64,000 bases of DNA from Paracyclopina nana. Its lineage: Eukaryota > Arthropoda > Copepoda > Cyclopoida > Cyclopettidae. The position numbers and the translations under genes are program-made. The notes below the pieces were generated by a model. It saw nothing but the letters and a program-made list of their open reading frames with translations, was not told where the DNA came from and did no database searches. Position 1 is the first letter of the stretch, and each line of letters starts with the position of its first letter. Below, in pieces: positions 51,222 to 61,300 of the stretch. The DNA lies in NCBI GenBank assembly GCA_019096065.1, contig JAGUCH010000001.1:15190001-15254000 (forward strand), written 5' to 3'.

Positions 51222-54200
51222 AAAAAGATGAGCTACATTTCTGAGGGAGCCTTGAGAAAAAATCACGTGCATTATTTTGCCAGTCAATTCGCGGAGAAAT
51301 AGTGAATATTTTACATCTTTTTGTGTGTCGCAAACTTGGTGTCCTCGTTCCCCAGCAGCGCTCTGGGTAAAGCAGTAAAAGCTAAGCACACACCAATCCA
51401 CCCAGTCAGCTAGCACGGCCTCTTTTTCTAGTTTTGGCCTTCAAGGTTATGCGCTCTCATGGTCCAATGATCATTTGGAGCTTCGACTACTCACCAAATG
51501 ATGATACTACAAAAATATGGCCTTGTACCATAATGCCACAGTTTTTTGCGCTCTCGCGCCAGCTCATAAAGCTCGAAAGTGACCCGAAATTGATGATACA
51601 AGTGCTGAGACAGAAAAAAAGCCCAAGGCTGTGAAATTCGATAAAAATCCCGCGGTTCAGGAGGGAGGGCTTTGCTCATCCTAAAATCTTGCATTACATG
51701 ATCTGATCATCCATCATGGAAAACGCACACCGCGAGTTTCTAATTTGGCTTTTCTCTATTCAAAAAAAGCTGCATACTAACATTATAGTTGAATACTGAC
51801 TCGGAGAAGGTGATGCATGGATGAGCGTATGAAATTGGATTAGCTCGTACGTGTATTATTAGTAGTAGACATGAGGCTTAATGAAATTGCTGAGCATTTT
51901 TTGCCCTCGCCATGGAAACGGTCTACAAGTATATTATTTTGTCAGGCATCCTGATTTAATAAACGCGTGTCTCTCTTTGGCCTCACCGACACTGCTTCTG
52001 ATTGTATCTCTCAGCTGGCTTGAATGTATTCGACTTCCAGTCAATTTGTATTCCTAAGATTCCATCTTTGGTGCAGCAGTCACTGCTGCGCTAGTCGTGT
52101 GTTTGCCCCTAGCTATTTATTTGCAGTGAAGGATGTCGAGTGGGAATAGAATCCATCTATTTTCTATGCTAAGCATCTGAGATGAACTTTTATTGCTGAC
52201 TTTGGAGAAGCGCGCGAGAAGAGGATACTCCAGACCAATAAAATGAGATGTGTTCACGGAGCTGGAACATCTACTACCAAAATATCACTTCAAGCGCTGA
52301 TGATGGCATAAAATGGATGATGCACACAGTTTTGGTCATATTCTGCAGCAGATAATTGCTTATACATAATAATGATAATGTGCGCGCACCGCCGCTCGTC
52401 TTTCTAATGGACTGAGCATTTCCTGGATTTGCTTGCTCTCCCTTCGGCCCGGCTAATCCTGTGTACGGCCTTTATTATGCTTCATCCTTTTTCTCCCATC
52501 TAGTGCATTACGCATGTGGTACAATTAACTTTCACAACCTTTATTCTCAGTAATCAAGGTTAATTTTCTCATGGTAGTCCAATCCATTTTCTCACAACTT
52601 TAAAAGGGTCTTTTGGACTTTGGTCGTCAACAAATTCATCACTTTATATGTTGCAGCAGAATATGGTATTGTGTATATATAGGAAAAGCAACAGAAACAA
52701 TTTTCTCTCTCGGTCTCTAAATATAATAAATGTGGGGGTCTTTTCGCTCGCTTTCGGGGATGGGGGATTTTCATCTACACATCTTTCTTGGTCATATAGT
52801 AGTTAACAAACAATTTCACGTTCTCTACGCACATCATGCTCGAAATAGTAAACAGTTCTCTTTTTGTTCAGCTTCCATTGATGCAATTTCACATTTTGGT
52901 AATGTATATAGCGCACAACAAGTGTTAGTAGTATATCGTCATAATTGAAAGAATTGTGTAGTAATATAGCAGCAGCGTTCAAGCCATAAATATGGTTTGT
53001 AGTATAGGCAACAATAATTCAGCAAAAACCTTTGTTTTCTTCAATAATAGTACGCGTCATAATAATATTGCTCTAACTTTGAAAGCCACGGAATTCCTGT
53101 ACAACAAATATAGTAAGCTAACCAAAAATGTCAAAGTGTAGTAGTAGTTCTCTAGCTAGATGTTAGCTTCTCATCGAGGGAGGTGTCATTGAGCATGCAT
53201 GATCATGAGGCTTTGTCCATGTTGGGAGCGGCTGCTCACATCCCTGAATGTGTGATTGAAACTTTTCGATCACATTCAAAGCTCCTATCTTGTAGCTCGG
53301 TATATTACGTTCTCAATAGTTATTATGAGCTCGCATTGTCAGCATGACATGTCTTGAGCCTTTTTTCCTGCATTAAAACCGTATCTCATATTGCTGCAGT
53401 CGGCGCTCCTGTCGATCTCGACACGAACCTGACGTTGATGATGTTCCAACTTGCGATGATGAAGGCTGGAAAGCAAGCAAAAATGCCACGTATAAATAAG
53501 TATGTAGGCAAGACTTGAAGTTTGCACAAAGCTACCTTTGCGTGTGCTTTCATTTTTAGAGGCCCTAAAGAGGTGACAATGGCTGGAACTTTATGGCAAC
53601 GTCGTAAAGCACACGCGCGCGCGCAGCGCAAAAAAGCAGCGCACATTTTCCGTCAAATGTCATTTGGGAGTAGTGAGAAGGGGAAGAGTAGGCATTCTGT
53701 AAAATATGGTTTCAAGACGGCAAGCGGAGTGCTTCGCTGTCCGCCAACTTCATCTTGAACCACCCAGTAGTGGTACATACTATAAGCATTTGCCATAATG
53801 GTATAACTTGATACTAAGCCAGGCGCCCTTGAGGCTCATTCCATTAGCAATGGCCAAACCTAGGATACTTCAGCGCTCCACATAACTGCTAATACATTGC
53901 TGACCGGTCAATGTGTACATGCAATGTGGAATTACATTTCTAAGCAGCCAGGTTAAGTGCATGACAGCCATTCATTAAAAGTTGTGACGGCAATTAATTA
54001 AAGCCAGCTCCTGCCAAGCATGAGATGCAATTATGATAGCTTTGAATAATTACAGACAAGCTACTTGACAAAAGTTGCTGACTCCTCAACTCACCAAATT
54101 TATGGCAGGACTTCTGTAAGCAAAGGCATGTGCGCCAAACTTAGCTAATAATCAGTCCAGCAAAATAGTGAGGAAATATTTTGGTGGTACGCAATGTGTC

Positions 54201-54737
54201 TTCGCAATGTAAGGAATTTCAAAAGCAAATGGCAGTGGCTGCAAAAAGAATGCAATTTGCTTATATTGTTGGGCCTTCACTGTATTTGTACTAAGTGCAA
54301 AAGCAGTAAAACGTACCCTGCAAGGGGCTTTTTGTCAATTTTTGGCTTTTTACTGCCCCATATTGTAGCCGCATAAAAATGCAAAGCAGCTAGCTGCAGT
54401 GGTATAGAGAGAAAAATAGCCACTAAAAAATTCAAATTGAGTTTCTTCCGACGTTGTCGCGCACGTGCCATGCTATATGCTACTGAGGAACTGCAGGCAA
54501 ACTTCATTCGCATCATGTATAGACTACAGACAATTGAGGCCAACTGAAGGAGAAGCATATGGAACTGGCTACTACTTTGAAGCAGGTCCTGAATGTGCTT
54601 AACTTGCTAATAGAGCTTAGGCGCAAATCCTCCGCAGATCTGATGATGAGGCCTTTGGCACGCACAGCAGTGGAGGTAATTATTTACCGAAAGTAGTAAT
54701 GGCAGTGCAAGGGCAAATAAGTGACAAATTCACCTTA
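51222..54737. other. Intergenic region of 3.5 kb with no gene seen
   Basis: Frames up to about 95 codons without resemblance to known families. It contains AATAAA at about 51958, short TA and CG/GC runs (52670s, 53613-53626), and a small hairpin around 53244-53278 (GAATGTG...CACATTC). The larger part probably is flanking regulatory DNA. Confidence 0.45.
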
Positions 54738-57700
54738 TCATTGCTGCAATGTTGTCCTCGCGGCTCTTGCACTTGCTTGGGAACTTGAAGGTGCAGTCGT
54801 GGTAGAAGTTGCAGTTGTGGCTGCTGCGGAGGAAACGAAAGCACCTCCGACGACTACGTAGTGCTGAACTTTCTTCCAGAGCATTAAACTGTTGGGTGGT
54901 GGTTGGCTGGTCGTGCTCGTTCCCGCTGAGGTTACCACGGTGGATGTCGTGGAAGGAAGTCCGGACAATGAGAAGACGTTTTTCTTGGCTGACTGCGCGA
55001 TGGGCGGCGGCCGGTTGGCTTTGACAGCTGACGCCAACTGGCTATTTGTTGTTGTTATTGTTGTCGCTGACGTCATGACGATGGGCGCGCCATCTATGTC
55101 GAAACTGGTGCCGGTGGGCGGCACCTCGGACTCAAAGGAGGCGTCATAGTGGCCCTCGGTCACGATGGAGCTGTCGAAGCTGTGCTCCTGCCAGTTGCCC
55201 GAGTGCACGAGCAGATCCGGCGGCTGCTGTTTGTTGTTGACGTAATTCTGCTGACTCACGTTGGTGGAGGAGTCCACGTGGTTGTTGTTCACGTTGTTGA
55301 GGCTGCCCTCGCGCTGGCTCGATACCTCTGGGATGGTGGAGAGAGTGATGTTGGGGTTTCTGGGGGGGTTGTTTGCACCCTGGTGGCCTTTAATACTGCC
55401 GCCGCCAATACCAGAAGAGTTGCTGCCGTGAAGGAGGCTGGCCGACGATGGAGGCTGTTGGGGGCCTGCTGCGGTCACAGCTGCGGCTCTCTGGTCTTCG
55501 GGTGCAGGCGACGGCACCTGGCCGTTTGGGGCAGGCGAAGGGACGTTGGAGCTGAACGAGCTCGAGTAGTTCGTGGTGGCTGCCTGGAAGCGAGCCTGCC
55601 GGTCACGCTGCTGCTGCTGATGATGATGGTCGCGCCGAGACGAAGGCTGCTGCTGACCGGCCGAGTTGATGCGGATCAACTCGTTGAACATGGCCGCGTC
55701 TTCCTCCTCGCTCTCGCGGAACATTTTGTCCAGGGCCTCCTCCATTTGCAGGACGTCGTCGTAGCTGTCGGTGGAGGTGAAGGCCGCGGCCGTGGCGTCC
55801 GTGTAGGCCGCAGCCATGACCTTGGGCCGAAAGAGGACGCTCGACCTGACCGGGTAGTGTCTGGCGACCAGGCCGGCGATTTCGGTGGGGTGCGGGACGC
55901 GGGAGTGGCTCTGCCACCTGGGGTGGTGCAACTTGTGGAAGTGAGGCTGGTAGGCGGTCTTGAGGACGAAGGCGCCGTTACCCGTATCGCGCAGCGACAA
56001 CTCGTTGATGAAGAAGATGAACAGGTAGTTGAAGGCCCGGATCATTTGCTCCAGCGTGAGCGAGTCCCACTGCTCGAAGTTGTTGACGAGGCGGTGGAAC
56101 CGCTCCTGCGGGTTGGTGTGCGGGGACAGGAACTGGTTCTCGCAGATGTTCAGCTTGGCCATGGCCCACTTGCCGAGGCGGCCGGAGCGGGGCAGGAGGC
56201 GCTGGCGGTAGTAGAGGACGAAGTCTTTGGGCCACACATACTCAAACTCCTTGCGGTAGCGGTCGTGCATGGCCTGCTTCGACGGCGAGTTGAGCAGGTA
56301 GCAGACGCACGCCTTGAAGTAGTTGATGGCCTCTTCGCCGTAGCCCTTGACGCGGAGGTAGCCGTCGATGTCGCGGAACCGGTGCGACCAGCCCTCCAGC
56401 TGCACCAGGTTGGGCGCCTGGGCTCGCACAGCCAGGTGAACCGCGGGCTCAGCATCGTCGATGATGAGGGGGAAGCGGTGCTTGTGCAGCGCCGGGATAT
56501 CCCCCACCACCCGCGCCCAGAACAGCGAGTGGCTCGACTTGAACTGCCGCTCGTGGATGTTGACGGCGAGCGGCATGATGGGGTGGCCCTCGTAGGCGGC
56601 GTTCACAAACGTGAGCAGCGTCACGTGCAGCCGTCCCAGGGGAAAGGTGACGTCGTAGAAGAGCCGGATGCCGTCCTGCGGCTGGGTGATGGTGCTGGGC
56701 CCTACGTAGAGCATGGGGTCACTGTAGAGCACTTGGCAGGCGTGCTCGAATTCGCGCGTCATGTCCGGGTGCACGAGGGTGACTTGGAGCGAGGGGAACA
56801 GGGTGAGGTTCTTCACCAGCTTTCCCGAGGCCAGCTCCTCCGACAGGGAAATCAGCTCGCCCTGCACCGACGACGGGCCCATCACGATGGAGAGCTGGTT
56901 GCTCGGACTCCGCATCGCTTGCAGCCTTTTGAGGTGGAGCTCGTGCTCCAGGACATCCATCCTGTTGTTGGAGTTGGCTAGCTTGTTTTTGCGCTCCAGC
57001 GACCTCGGCCGGCCGCCGCCGGCGAGGCTAGCTGATGAGCTCCGAAAATTCCGGCCAGAAGAATGATGGTCGTTGAGGCCAGCCGAGGTGGCCCGAGGCC
57101 TTTTGTCATATCTGTGCGAGCGGGGCAGTGAGTTGAAAGTGGTGGCCTGCAGGGAGACTGGCGGCGGCGGTGGCTTTTCACACGGCCCGCCGCCATTCGC
57201 CTCGTGTTCCGCGCGTTCGTCCCCGATGTACGTGACGAGCGTGAGGTCGCCCATGGTGTAGGCCTCCCTGCGAAATTTCGAGCTGGTCCTCGTTCTGCGC
57301 CCGTCTCCGAGGCTGGAGGAGATGTAGTAGTGCCTGTAGTCGAGGTGGTTGTCCTTGGACGTGATGAGGTCCGACTGGTGCAGAATCTCGGTCCACATGT
57401 ATCCGTCTGTCGGAGCCTCGCGCTCGAAGGTCTGAGTGAATATGAGAAACATGGTGCCTCCCCTGGGCCTGTGTGGCATCGAGTGGCGAATCTTGCCGGC
57501 CACTGGCTTCCCCGATCTGGCCTGCAACATGAGCTCCTCAGCTTGCTCGATCATCAGAGGCGCTTTGAAGGGGATACCGCCGCCGTGGTCAGTGCCGCCC
57601 ATCTCGTCCCTGTCTGCTGCGATCACAGTGCTAATTTTGCTCTCGGCTATCCGAAAATGGTCATTGCTCGTGGGGTTGAAGTTGTAGTCCTCGATGCCGC

Positions 57701-58310
57701 CGTTGAACCGATGCGGACTCCTTGACCGACGTTGTAGTGGCTGTTCAATCACAGTTGAAGCGTTTGAGCTCGTACTCGTGTTGTACGTTTTGGAGTCCTT
57801 GAGGGCGAACCTGCATCGTTTGGATTGGGCCAAGAACTGCTGCTGGTGCTTCGCCTCAGCATTGCTGCCGCAGTTCCCCCCTGCCAAGGCCGATGATGAT
57901 GCTGCGGAGCCGTTGTTGGCCAAGCTGGATGCCAAGGTTGCTTGCAGGTGTTGTTGCGGCTGCTGGGAGGTGCTATTAGGTACATGTTGTTGCTGATAGT
58001 TGCTATTGCTGCTACTCCTAGTTGGCAGCACAGAAGGCAAATTGTTCGATGAAGTTAGAGGTAAGCTAAATCCGGTCCTGGCTCGCGGCTTGCCATTGTT
58101 GCCAATGGTCGCTGATGATGGAGCTGCCCCATTCTCTGGTGGATTGCTTGATGGCTGTTTAGCCGTGGAACTCGCTGCTGCTGCTGCTGTTGTGCCTGGT
58201 GGCAAATGCAGGCTGGCCATGCTGGTGATGGGGAGATGCAGGCCTTGGCCCCCTCCACCACCACCACCACCAGCTGCTGCTCGTGGCTGCTGCTGCTGCT
58301 GACTAGCCAT
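54738..58310 (-). CDS. Large single-exon protein with CG-1-like domain and MULE-type transposase domain
   Basis: One uninterrupted frame of 1,190 residues from ATG 58310 (aaacaATGGC). Residues 1-170 are low-complexity (Gln, Ala, Gly, Ser, Asn runs), as are about 800-1,190. Residues 279-366 resemble a CG-1-like DNA-binding domain: RPRGGTMFLIF, TDGYMW, YY, FRREAY, LTLVTYIGDE. Residues 505-770 resemble a Mutator-like (MULE) transposase core: FYDVTFPLGRLHVTLL (D553), MPLAVNIHERQFKSSHSLFW, FPLIIDDAEPAV (D618), GWSHRFRDIDGYLR, LGKWAMAKLNICEN and NPQERFHRLVNNFEQWDS (E736), so a D-D-E set is present. The usual Cys of the CxxH motif is Gly640. GC content is far above that of its neighbours. The long intact frame without a visible transposon border suggests a host gene derived from a transposon; an active element is not excluded. 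The domain calls are from memory of family patterns. Confidence 0.75.
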   Translation of the reverse strand: MASQQQQQPRAAAGGGGGGGGQGLHLPITSMASLHLPPGTTAAAAASSTAKQPSSNPPENGAAPSSATIGNNGKPRARTGFSLPLTSSNNLPSVLPTRSSSNSNYQQQHVPNSTSQQPQQHLQATLASSLANNGSAASSSALAGGNCGSNAEAKHQQQFLAQSKRCRFALKDSKTYNTSTSSNASTVIEQPLQRRSRSPHRFNGGIEDYNFNPTSNDHFRIAESKISTVIAADRDEMGGTDHGGGIPFKAPLMIEQAEELMLQARSGKPVAGKIRHSMPHRPRGGTMFLIFTQTFEREAPTDGYMWTEILHQSDLITSKDNHLDYRHYYISSSLGDGRRTRTSSKFRREAYTMGDLTLVTYIGDERAEHEANGGGPCEKPPPPPVSLQATTFNSLPRSHRYDKRPRATSAGLNDHHSSGRNFRSSSASLAGGGRPRSLERKNKLANSNNRMDVLEHELHLKRLQAMRSPSNQLSIVMGPSSVQGELISLSEELASGKLVKNLTLFPSLQVTLVHPDMTREFEHACQVLYSDPMLYVGPSTITQPQDGIRLFYDVTFPLGRLHVTLLTFVNAAYEGHPIMPLAVNIHERQFKSSHSLFWARVVGDIPALHKHRFPLIIDDAEPAVHLAVRAQAPNLVQLEGWSHRFRDIDGYLRVKGYGEEAINYFKACVCYLLNSPSKQAMHDRYRKEFEYVWPKDFVLYYRQRLLPRSGRLGKWAMAKLNICENQFLSPHTNPQERFHRLVNNFEQWDSLTLEQMIRAFNYLFIFFINELSLRDTGNGAFVLKTAYQPHFHKLHHPRWQSHSRVPHPTEIAGLVARHYPVRSSVLFRPKVMAAAYTDATAAAFTSTDSYDDVLQMEEALDKMFRESEEEDAAMFNELIRINSAGQQQPSSRRDHHHQQQQRDRQARFQAATTNYSSSFSSNVPSPAPNGQVPSPAPEDQRAAAVTAAGPQQPPSSASLLHGSNSSGIGGGSIKGHQGANNPPRNPNITLSTIPEVSSQREGSLNNVNNNHVDSSTNVSQQNYVNNKQQPPDLLVHSGNWQEHSFDSSIVTEGHYDASFESEVPPTGTSFDIDGAPIVMTSATTITTTNSQLASAVKANRPPPIAQSAKKNVFSLSGLPSTTSTVVTSAGTSTTSQPPPNSLMLWKKVQHYVVVGGAFVSSAAATTATSTTTAPSSSQASARAARTTLQQ

Positions 58311-61300
58311 TGTTTAGAGGATGGTGATGGTGATAGCAGCATATCACTTCAGTGCATAATGCTGAAAGGATATGATGAAAACAATGTGAAAGCCATCTGC
58401 GAAGCTGATATCATGCGTACATGAGGAATAACTTGCGTCTACGTAATTCTTGGGAGTAAGAAAGCCATTTCCCGCCTCATTTGCGGAATGCGCGTGTTTT
58501 CCACCCTTCACACGTCGTTTTGCTATCATCGTCGAAACTCCTTGAAACTTTCACCGCCAGCAACTTTGCACACGTACACGACGAGTTGGCGCATAATGAA
58601 ACTCACAGCTAACTAGCGTACATTTAAATTTAGCAATCATGCTGTCAAACACACGCTACTCATATTGATTTATGGAACAACCACTTGAATACACCTGTAT
58701 TGTGTAAAAGCGAAATTGATTACATACTCTGCATTGAGGTGGGAGCAAGCTAATTTAAAAGTCCCATTGGCTCAATGAGCATATTCATTATAGCACCGAA
58801 AATATAGCCATGTGTGTAGAGTGGTTATACCAAAAGTTACTACATCGCGTAAGTCCATCACGCGAGGCCGAAGTGCGAAAGTGCACTTGAGATGTTGTTT
58901 ACCTTTTTTGGCTGGTCTCCAACATTTCTGGTTGGGTGATCTCCATCACAGTGTTTAGCAGGAAGGCTGCCGCCGCCACAAGCTAGCCAAAAGTGGTGCT
59001 GCTACCTTCTTCATATGTATTTTGTGAAGGTCTATACCAAGGCATAGGCAACCCACAACTGAGACTGTGTCCCATGCCTGCCGAGAGCTGAAAGGCGCTC
59101 CTTCTCACACTCAGCAGTGAGAAGCAGCAGCAGCAGCAGCTCTCTGGCAGGGTCTTGCAACAGTCACGGGACCTCATTGATCCTGAGCAAGCCATTACAG
59201 AAATGCAATTTGCCAAGAGCACATAGATTGTCATTTAGTATGTGTGCATCTCATACACTCCGCACAGCTGCCTTGCATGAGGACGGCATAATTGACAGAG
59301 ATTAACTAGCTGCTCAGCCATTACGCCGCTGCAGCCCTGCGCGCTCAGATTCCTGCCAAAAAACTGTAAGCATATCTTTTGGCAGGCCAAAGGGGCCTCT
59401 GTATCTGGATACAATACATTTCCACCCACCTGGATGGCGAGGAGAGGCGAGTTGAGCCAAAGAACCCTGTATGGTCTATGCAGTGCGTGCATAGGAGCTC
59501 TTCTAGCGAAAAGTGTGGAGGATGGTTTGGCCGAAGAGAAGAAGAGCTACACTACTGCTTTACTCTCTATGTGTAGTATATGGCTACACTGAATCCGAGT
59601 ACTTCAGTACATAAATCGAAGCGCTCACAAAAGCTATGGACAAGCGGTCCTCGTCGTCGCAGTAGTCCAAAGAAAGCTTTAAATCACGGTATTGTTCCTC
59701 GGGATCATCACATGATTGCAGTGCTCATTTGTCAGCTTTCTTCATTTGGCCGTATATATGATGCGAGCATAATACCCCTTTTTTGCGCGCTCGCGCGCAT
59801 TTCGCAGCGTGAACAAATGCGTCCTTATTTCTAGGTGATCATGAGATGCACTTTTCAGCAGAATATCACAGTGTGGCACCATATACCATGCTACTACTAT
59901 ATTAAAATGACTGCTGACCATGTTGTGCGACGTTGGCCTTCGGCCTTAATCTCATAGATAATGTCTTCAAGTATTGACTCAGTAGCCAAGTTGAGATTAA
60001 AGGCCACTATCGTGGTGGTCTCCTCTGTAGCAATGGCTGAGAGCTAGAAGATGCGACCTTCACGGTGTCCTGGACCAGAAACTTTCTCTCTTACGACGAC
60101 TGAAGATTGAGCCTGAATCAACTCAAGTGTCGTTGACGAGAAATACTACAATACACTCCTATATCTAGCAGCAGTGAAACACTTCAAACTTTCCAGATTC
60201 CCTGCCTGATCTGAAAAGCCAACAAGAATCCTTTTTTAGCCTAAAACGGCTCGATGATGGGTCTCGTGGCTTCAGGCTACATTCTATTGTAAGCACATAT
60301 GCTAACCGTCTGCGTTAGTCCTATATGTAGAGTTAGACAACCTCGGCCAAAGTCAACACACTCATCGCGGCCTTTCTACTACTACCAGGCTAAAGTGTAG
60401 GCGGTAAATGGCGGCAAAAGATAATTCATGTTGGTTTTTTAAAGTGAAAAGAAGCCTCCCTTTTGAGCCTGGCAAAAAATGGCCTACATCCTTACACAGA
60501 GTAGGAGCAGACCCAAGAAGTAGCATGATTTACAACGCAAGGGCTGAAACAACAGAAAAGACACAGGAGTGCGTCGTAGGACACTTTTTGGTGTACAGGG
60601 AGACAACCATTTTTCATGTTCCGCCACTACCAGTACTACTCGCACTGGAAGAGCTCTGCGCAAGGGGAAGCCTCAGTAATTTATCATTTAATTTTGATCG
60701 GAGATCACCAAAATCTGTATAGCTTGCATGTTTGGGCTAGTAAAATAATTTTCATGGGTTCTTGGCTGTGCTGAGATGGGTTTTCAGATAAATCTCGGAT
60801 GCAATGGAACATAGAGGCTGCTGTGATGGTAGGAAGAGGGAGGAAGATATCTTTGGCCCATTCACAAAACTTTCCTTTTCTTATTTCTTGCCTCGATCAC
60901 TACAGCTCTATTTAAAGCGTAGTAGTTAGAAGCGGGAGCTAGGCAGCTATAAGGATGTAGTGAAGAAATGTGATGGATCGATGCTCGATGTCGTGGCTTT
61001 CATATTCAAATTCATCAGCAATTAAAATATCCTATTTGCGATGACTAAGCTGATAAGATGCATCACCTCATTTTCTTCACGAAAAAGTAAGCAAAATAAT
61101 ACGTAGATAAGGAGAAATTCCCTTGTGAAGAGCTTATGACACCATTTAACTTTAATTTAAAATCAATATTTATTGAGAGCCTCTGATTAACCTCTGATTT
61201 TTTGTGATAAGGCTAACGTATACAACATGTCGACATTTCTATTATCAATAGTAGCAACTACTGTGAAGACTTCATGTACAATTACATAAGCTATGGAGAC

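Follow-up and report, generated by a model that had tools for sequence, protein, structure and literature searches.

In a 64,000-nucleotide stretch of the genome of the copepod Paracyclopina nana (bases 15,190,001–15,254,000 of contig C1, JAGUCH010000001.1; hereafter the window), a GC-rich open reading frame (ORF), P0001, was analyzed. The explanation favored here, if only slightly, is that P0001 is a single-copy host gene descended from a transposase of a Mutator-like element (MULE), with a CG-1-like domain as its DNA-binding part. By analogy, its product is probably a DNA-binding regulator. This explanation draws on a sub-threshold resemblance to CG-1, on a set of candidate catalytic residues arranged as in a MULE-type ORF of the same genome, and on copy number and base composition.

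Results

An Intact Frame with a CG-1-like Domain

The frame of P0001 runs through 1,190 codons exactly where an earlier sequence-only reading had placed it (54738–58310); that reading named no strand, and the ORF is on the minus strand. The longest frame in 200 base shuffles of the ORF was 384 amino acids, and an in-frame stop lies two codons 5' of the ATG. That the ORF is GC-richer than its neighborhood was confirmed: 1-kb windows within it reach a GC content of 0.64, as compared to 0.43 in the flanks.

At E values up to 10, CG-1 (PF03859) was the sole Pfam match of the whole protein. The match became stronger with shorter queries, from an E value of 0.026 for the whole protein to 0.0023 for a 200-residue piece and 0.00093 (19.4 bits) for residues 260–372, where it covered residues 269–359. 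When the CG-1-like part was aligned with the CAMTA protein of the same genome, 1 of 2,000 shuffles scored equally well in local alignment; for semi-global alignment, the figure was 2 of 2,000. In a repeat of the test, none of 1,000 shuffles did so in either mode. The motifs RP-GxM, DGYxW, F-RR-Y and LVxY occur in identical order in CAMTA and P0001. In CAMTA proteins, CG-1 is followed by TIG, ankyrin and IQ parts. None of these was matched by Pfam in P0001 at E values up to 10, and P0001 also differs from CAMTA in the transposase-like core that follows the CG-1-like part.

A Core with a MULE-like Residue Order

Downstream of the CG-1-like domain, five motif positions (D553, D619, H643, W715 and E736) were found to be co-linear, at similar spacing, with those of P0002, a MULE-type ORF elsewhere in the genome. 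D553 and E736, proposed from sequence alone, were retained, and the order and spacing of the motifs, not a significant profile match, support the MULE reading. D618, proposed as the second catalytic Asp, was replaced: this residue is most likely its neighbor D619, the D of D-x-E, since D619 aligns with SDEE of P0002 and stands 24 residues ahead of H643, as D283 does ahead of H307 in Muta1 (PMC5225508). The steps in P0001 are 66 residues from D553 to D619, 24 from D619 to H643 and 117 from D619 to E736, in comparison with 69, 24 and 136 in Muta1 (PMC5225508). In arthropod MULE families, 60–76 residues generally separate the two Asp, and 120–135 lie between the second Asp and Glu in 8 of 12 families (PMC13359780). 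The last step of P0001 is slightly short for a MULE. Muta1 and other mosquito FLYWCH MULEs resemble P0001 in core spacing and in the positions of His and Trp, with 21 residues from Trp to Glu in P0001 (W715–E736) and 18 in Muta1 (W401–E419) (PMC5225508). They differ from it in that they carry a FLYWCH zinc finger rather than CG-1, have terminal inverted repeats (TIRs) and occur in multiple copies.

Against a profile of P0002-type sequences, the core ranked first of 5,002 sequences (the core, the reversed core and 5,000 shuffles), with an E value of 1.3 that is not significant alone. Residues 250–860 had likewise ranked first in an earlier profile test with 1,000 shuffles. A single-sequence profile comparison of P0001 with P0002 was weak (E value of 0.18), and sequence searches of the PDB returned nothing useful (one match, E value of 1). 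In single-sequence structure models, the mean predicted local distance difference test score was 34.2 for residues 468–860 and 45.0 for residues 250–378, too low for use.

Copy Number, Ends and Composition

The sequence-only reading had offered a host gene or a recent element and had reserved the name of a plain transposon for the case that near-identical copies bearing inverted repeats were numerous. No such copies turned up. A single place in the genome (91.95 Mb, 10 contigs) was found both with residues 241–787 at E values up to 10 and with the whole protein at an E value of 0.001, in a search that scores the best candidates only. The flanks of 1,490 and 1,538 bases matched only themselves, although rarity is not fully shown by this search, which skips very common words. 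No TIR above chance was detected in the 3-kb flanks, where the best score of 11 was reached by 93 of 100 shuffles. A repeat search gave five short pairs of 19–21 nucleotides and 79–89% identity. A candidate TIR pair at 54062–54080 and 58558–58576 (19 nucleotides, 79%) was rejected, as the flank search gave nothing above shuffles.

The GC content at third codon positions (GC3) was 0.93 in the core of P0001 and only 0.36–0.47 in eight MULE ORFs of the genome, two of which (L015 and L020) are near-copies. Among the ORFs used for comparison, one that we take from the look of its sequence to be an EPS8-like host gene had a GC3 of 0.87, and five that we likewise take to be retroelement ORFs had 0.44–0.74. 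Eight window ORFs around P0001 showed values of 0.45–0.60.

Because of the copy, flank, TIR and GC3 results, long residence as a host gene is favored over the view that P0001 arrived recently from a MULE family of this genome. This is no proof of selection, and from sequence features we infer the domestication itself. An intact frame that has neither a second copy nor discernible element ends does not by itself prove lost mobility. It is conceivable, if unlikely, that P0001 belongs to a mobile MULE, either as its last copy or as one newly arrived, with a working transposase and with terminal repeats that are too short, too diverged or absent. The frame is intact and keeps D, D, H and E, TIRs are absent in some MULE families (PMC6446971), the genome harbors other MULEs, including two near-identical copies of one core (L034 and L035), and P0002 is likewise single. 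The solitary copy with self-matching flanks, the lack of TIRs above chance, the GC3 gap and the residue at position 640 speak against a mobile P0001.

The sequence-only reading had noted Gly640 at the Cys position of the MULE CxxH motif, and the alignment bore this out. Reading of translations by eye gave Cys at this position in 8 of 8 other loci with a complete motif (L014, L015, L016, L017, L020, L021, L022 and L034; L035 is a near-copy of L034). The count left out L018 and L032, whose frames are interrupted at the motif and in which Cys was not seen, and L019, which was unclear. In Muta1, mutation of H307, the equivalent of H643, abolishes activity, and the reported tests concern the His of CxxH, not the Cys (PMC5225508). 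The replacement of Cys by Gly640 suggests that transposition may be impaired.

Evidence Against a Transposase Core

Several results weigh against descent from a MULE with a CG-1-like domain. No MULE (PF10551) or other Pfam match was obtained for residues 470–780, searched within the piece at window 55950–56990 (minus strand), and the whole protein was likewise without a MULE match at E values up to 10. A whole-genome search for the MULE family at E values up to 10 gave 9 places, the P0001 gene not among them. When the profile was built from five other MULEs, the core came only 604th, and its pairwise tests were near chance. For CG-1, the score stayed under the curated cut-off of 23.5 bits with every query, and a whole-genome CG-1 family search at E values up to 10 returned the true CAMTA only and not the P0001 gene. 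In direct alignment, the CG-1-like parts of the MULE-type loci L022, which carries P0002, and L033 were not significantly like that of P0001 or that of CAMTA, and the full L033 ORF had no CG-1 match.

A lack of profile matches to both domains had been named beforehand as telling against the proposal. Such a lack was found for MULE, while CG-1 was matched weakly: the CG-1 pattern stood as the only Pfam match and outscored shuffles against the CAMTA of the same genome, but below the Pfam cut-off. The support for a MULE core is weaker than had been implied, and the proposal was otherwise broadly right. The missing family recognition of residues 470–780, the low rank and the near-chance pairwise scores also fit a host gene that carries a CG-1-like domain but whose second half is no transposase core and shows D, D, H, W and E in this arrangement by coincidence. 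With five positions co-linear, at similar spacing, with those of P0002 and the core first of 5,002 in the P0002-type test, such a coincidence is rated as quite improbable.

Genomic Setting and Feature Coordinates

The neighbors of P0001 named by Pfam are animal genes, comprising ferroportin, PCNP, RNase H, AHA1, phosphatidylserine decarboxylase, C2H2 zinc-finger genes and a Fuseless match. No relatives were found in viral_contigs with the 547-residue piece (window 55950–57590, minus strand), P0002, the core (window 55731–56909, minus strand) or alignment A1, nor in genome_contigs with the 547-residue piece; these scans use 2 to 6 short peptide patterns each, which distant relatives can escape. 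Horizontal transfer or contamination, suggested by a GC content far above that of the surroundings, is very improbable, given the position inside a 17.8-Mb contig amid ordinary animal genes, the similarly GC-rich EPS8-like gene elsewhere in the genome and the failure of the scans with pieces of P0001 to find a relative in either collection; contamination was rejected on genomic context.

Neither AATAAA nor ATTAAA occurs in the 1,737 bases past the P0001 stop (window 53001–54737); the gene may have its 3' end at another place or use another signal. On the opposite strand, a 610-residue open frame faces the P0001 gene (window 55149–56981, plus strand); this frame probably arises as a shadow of third positions rich in GC.

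Table 1. Features of P0001 in the window, with the basis of each assignment.
Feature	Window positions	Strand	Basis or GC3
Intact ORF P0001, 1,190 amino acids	54738..58310	-	GC3 0.76
N-terminal low-complexity tail, residues 1-259, Q/A/S/G/N-rich	57534..58310	-	Sequence reading; GC3 0.57 (residues 1-240)
CG-1-like domain, residues 269-366 (RPRGGTMFL, DGYMW, YY, FRREAY, LTLVTYIGDE)	57213..57506	-	Pfam CG-1, sub-threshold; alignment with own-genome CAMTA
MULE-like DDE core, residues 470-780	55971..56903	-	Co-linear with P0002; profile rank; no Pfam match
D553, candidate first catalytic Asp (YDVTF)	56652..56654	-	Aligned with GIDRTF of P0002
D619, most likely second catalytic Asp (DAE)	56454..56456	-	Aligned with SDEE of P0002; spacing to H643
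G640, replaces Cys of CxxH	56391..56393	-	Alignment
H643, conserved His of CxxH	56382..56384	-	Alignment
W715, candidate conserved Trp between second Asp and Glu	56166..56168	-	Aligned with P0002 Trp
E736, candidate catalytic Glu (TNPQERF)	56103..56105	-	Aligned with NNAAESF of P0002
C-terminal part, residues 781-1190, mostly low complexity	54738..55970	-	Sequence reading; GC3 0.69 (residues 860-1190)

Other MULE-Type Loci of the Genome

The P0002-type elements comprise L022 with P0002, and L033 with L032. P0002 is a lone open frame of 982 amino acids (G000:C3:9082552-9085497, minus strand; L022:4553-7498) in which YIG...HGNSK stands ahead of a MULE-type core; its 7 other genome matches are all distant, with 22–31% identity. 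The P0002-type elements resemble P0001 in a domain ending in YIG ... HGNSK before the MULE core and in co-linear catalytic residues, and for the domain piece of L033 the sole Pfam match was CG-1, a weak one (E value of 0.087). They are unlike P0001 in their GC3 of 0.36–0.38, in the OTU-like part of L033 (E value of 0.018), to which P0002 aligns, and in the Cys that P0002 keeps in CxxH.

Nearly identical P0002-like cores were observed on different contigs at L034 (G000:C1:1155007-1156186) and L035 (G000:C2:226853-228032). A stop lies inside part of each, and 2 differences were counted by eye in a frame of 196 amino acids, a near-identity that suggests recent duplication. At L014 (G000:C6:2031723-2033333; L014:4224-5834), one frame encodes a MULE core and, after it, a RING finger, and the Cys-rich end of L016:4408-5637 resembles that of L014 by eye. 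In a Ghost element, RING is located on a separate ORF (PMC6446971).

Discussion

If P0001 descends from a MULE transposase that used a CG-1-like domain as its DNA-binding part, residues 470–780 would adopt a MULE-type RNase H fold, and the CG-1-like domain would bind DNA sequence-specifically. The long Q/S/N/A-rich tails may serve as activation or interaction regions. With Gly640 in place of the Cys of CxxH, the core would no longer move DNA efficiently, and the protein may regulate transcription, as do the MULE-derived FHY3/FAR1 proteins of plants. FHY3/FAR1 carry a FAR1-type zinc-binding DNA-binding domain, not CG-1. They and the animal FHY3 genes are alike to P0001 in the proposed end state, a transposase turned regulator (PMC10027918).

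Domesticated MULEs are already known in animals, since MULE-derived FHY3 genes and FLYWCH genes have been reported in several phyla (PMC10027918); the CG-1-like partner is unusual. No paper that pairs CG-1 with MULE, Mutator or transposase was found in the PMC literature searched, and the term CG-1 has 0 occurrences in the main texts of PMC6446971, PMC13359780 and PMC10027918. A more tentative idea, held to be rather unlikely, is that MULE transposases, which carry DNA-binding domains such as FLYWCH, also carry the CG-1 domain known from CAMTA; P0001 and the P0002-type elements, with their weak CG-1-like part, would then link a mobile family to CAMTA.

Transposases have repeatedly been turned into regulators, and FLYWCH and FHY3/FAR1-type parts of MULEs are documented examples. 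If the proposed origin of P0001 is true, this list would gain a further DNA-binding domain, a CG-1-like one joined to a MULE core, and a testable route to the origin of the DNA-binding domain of CAMTA would be at hand.
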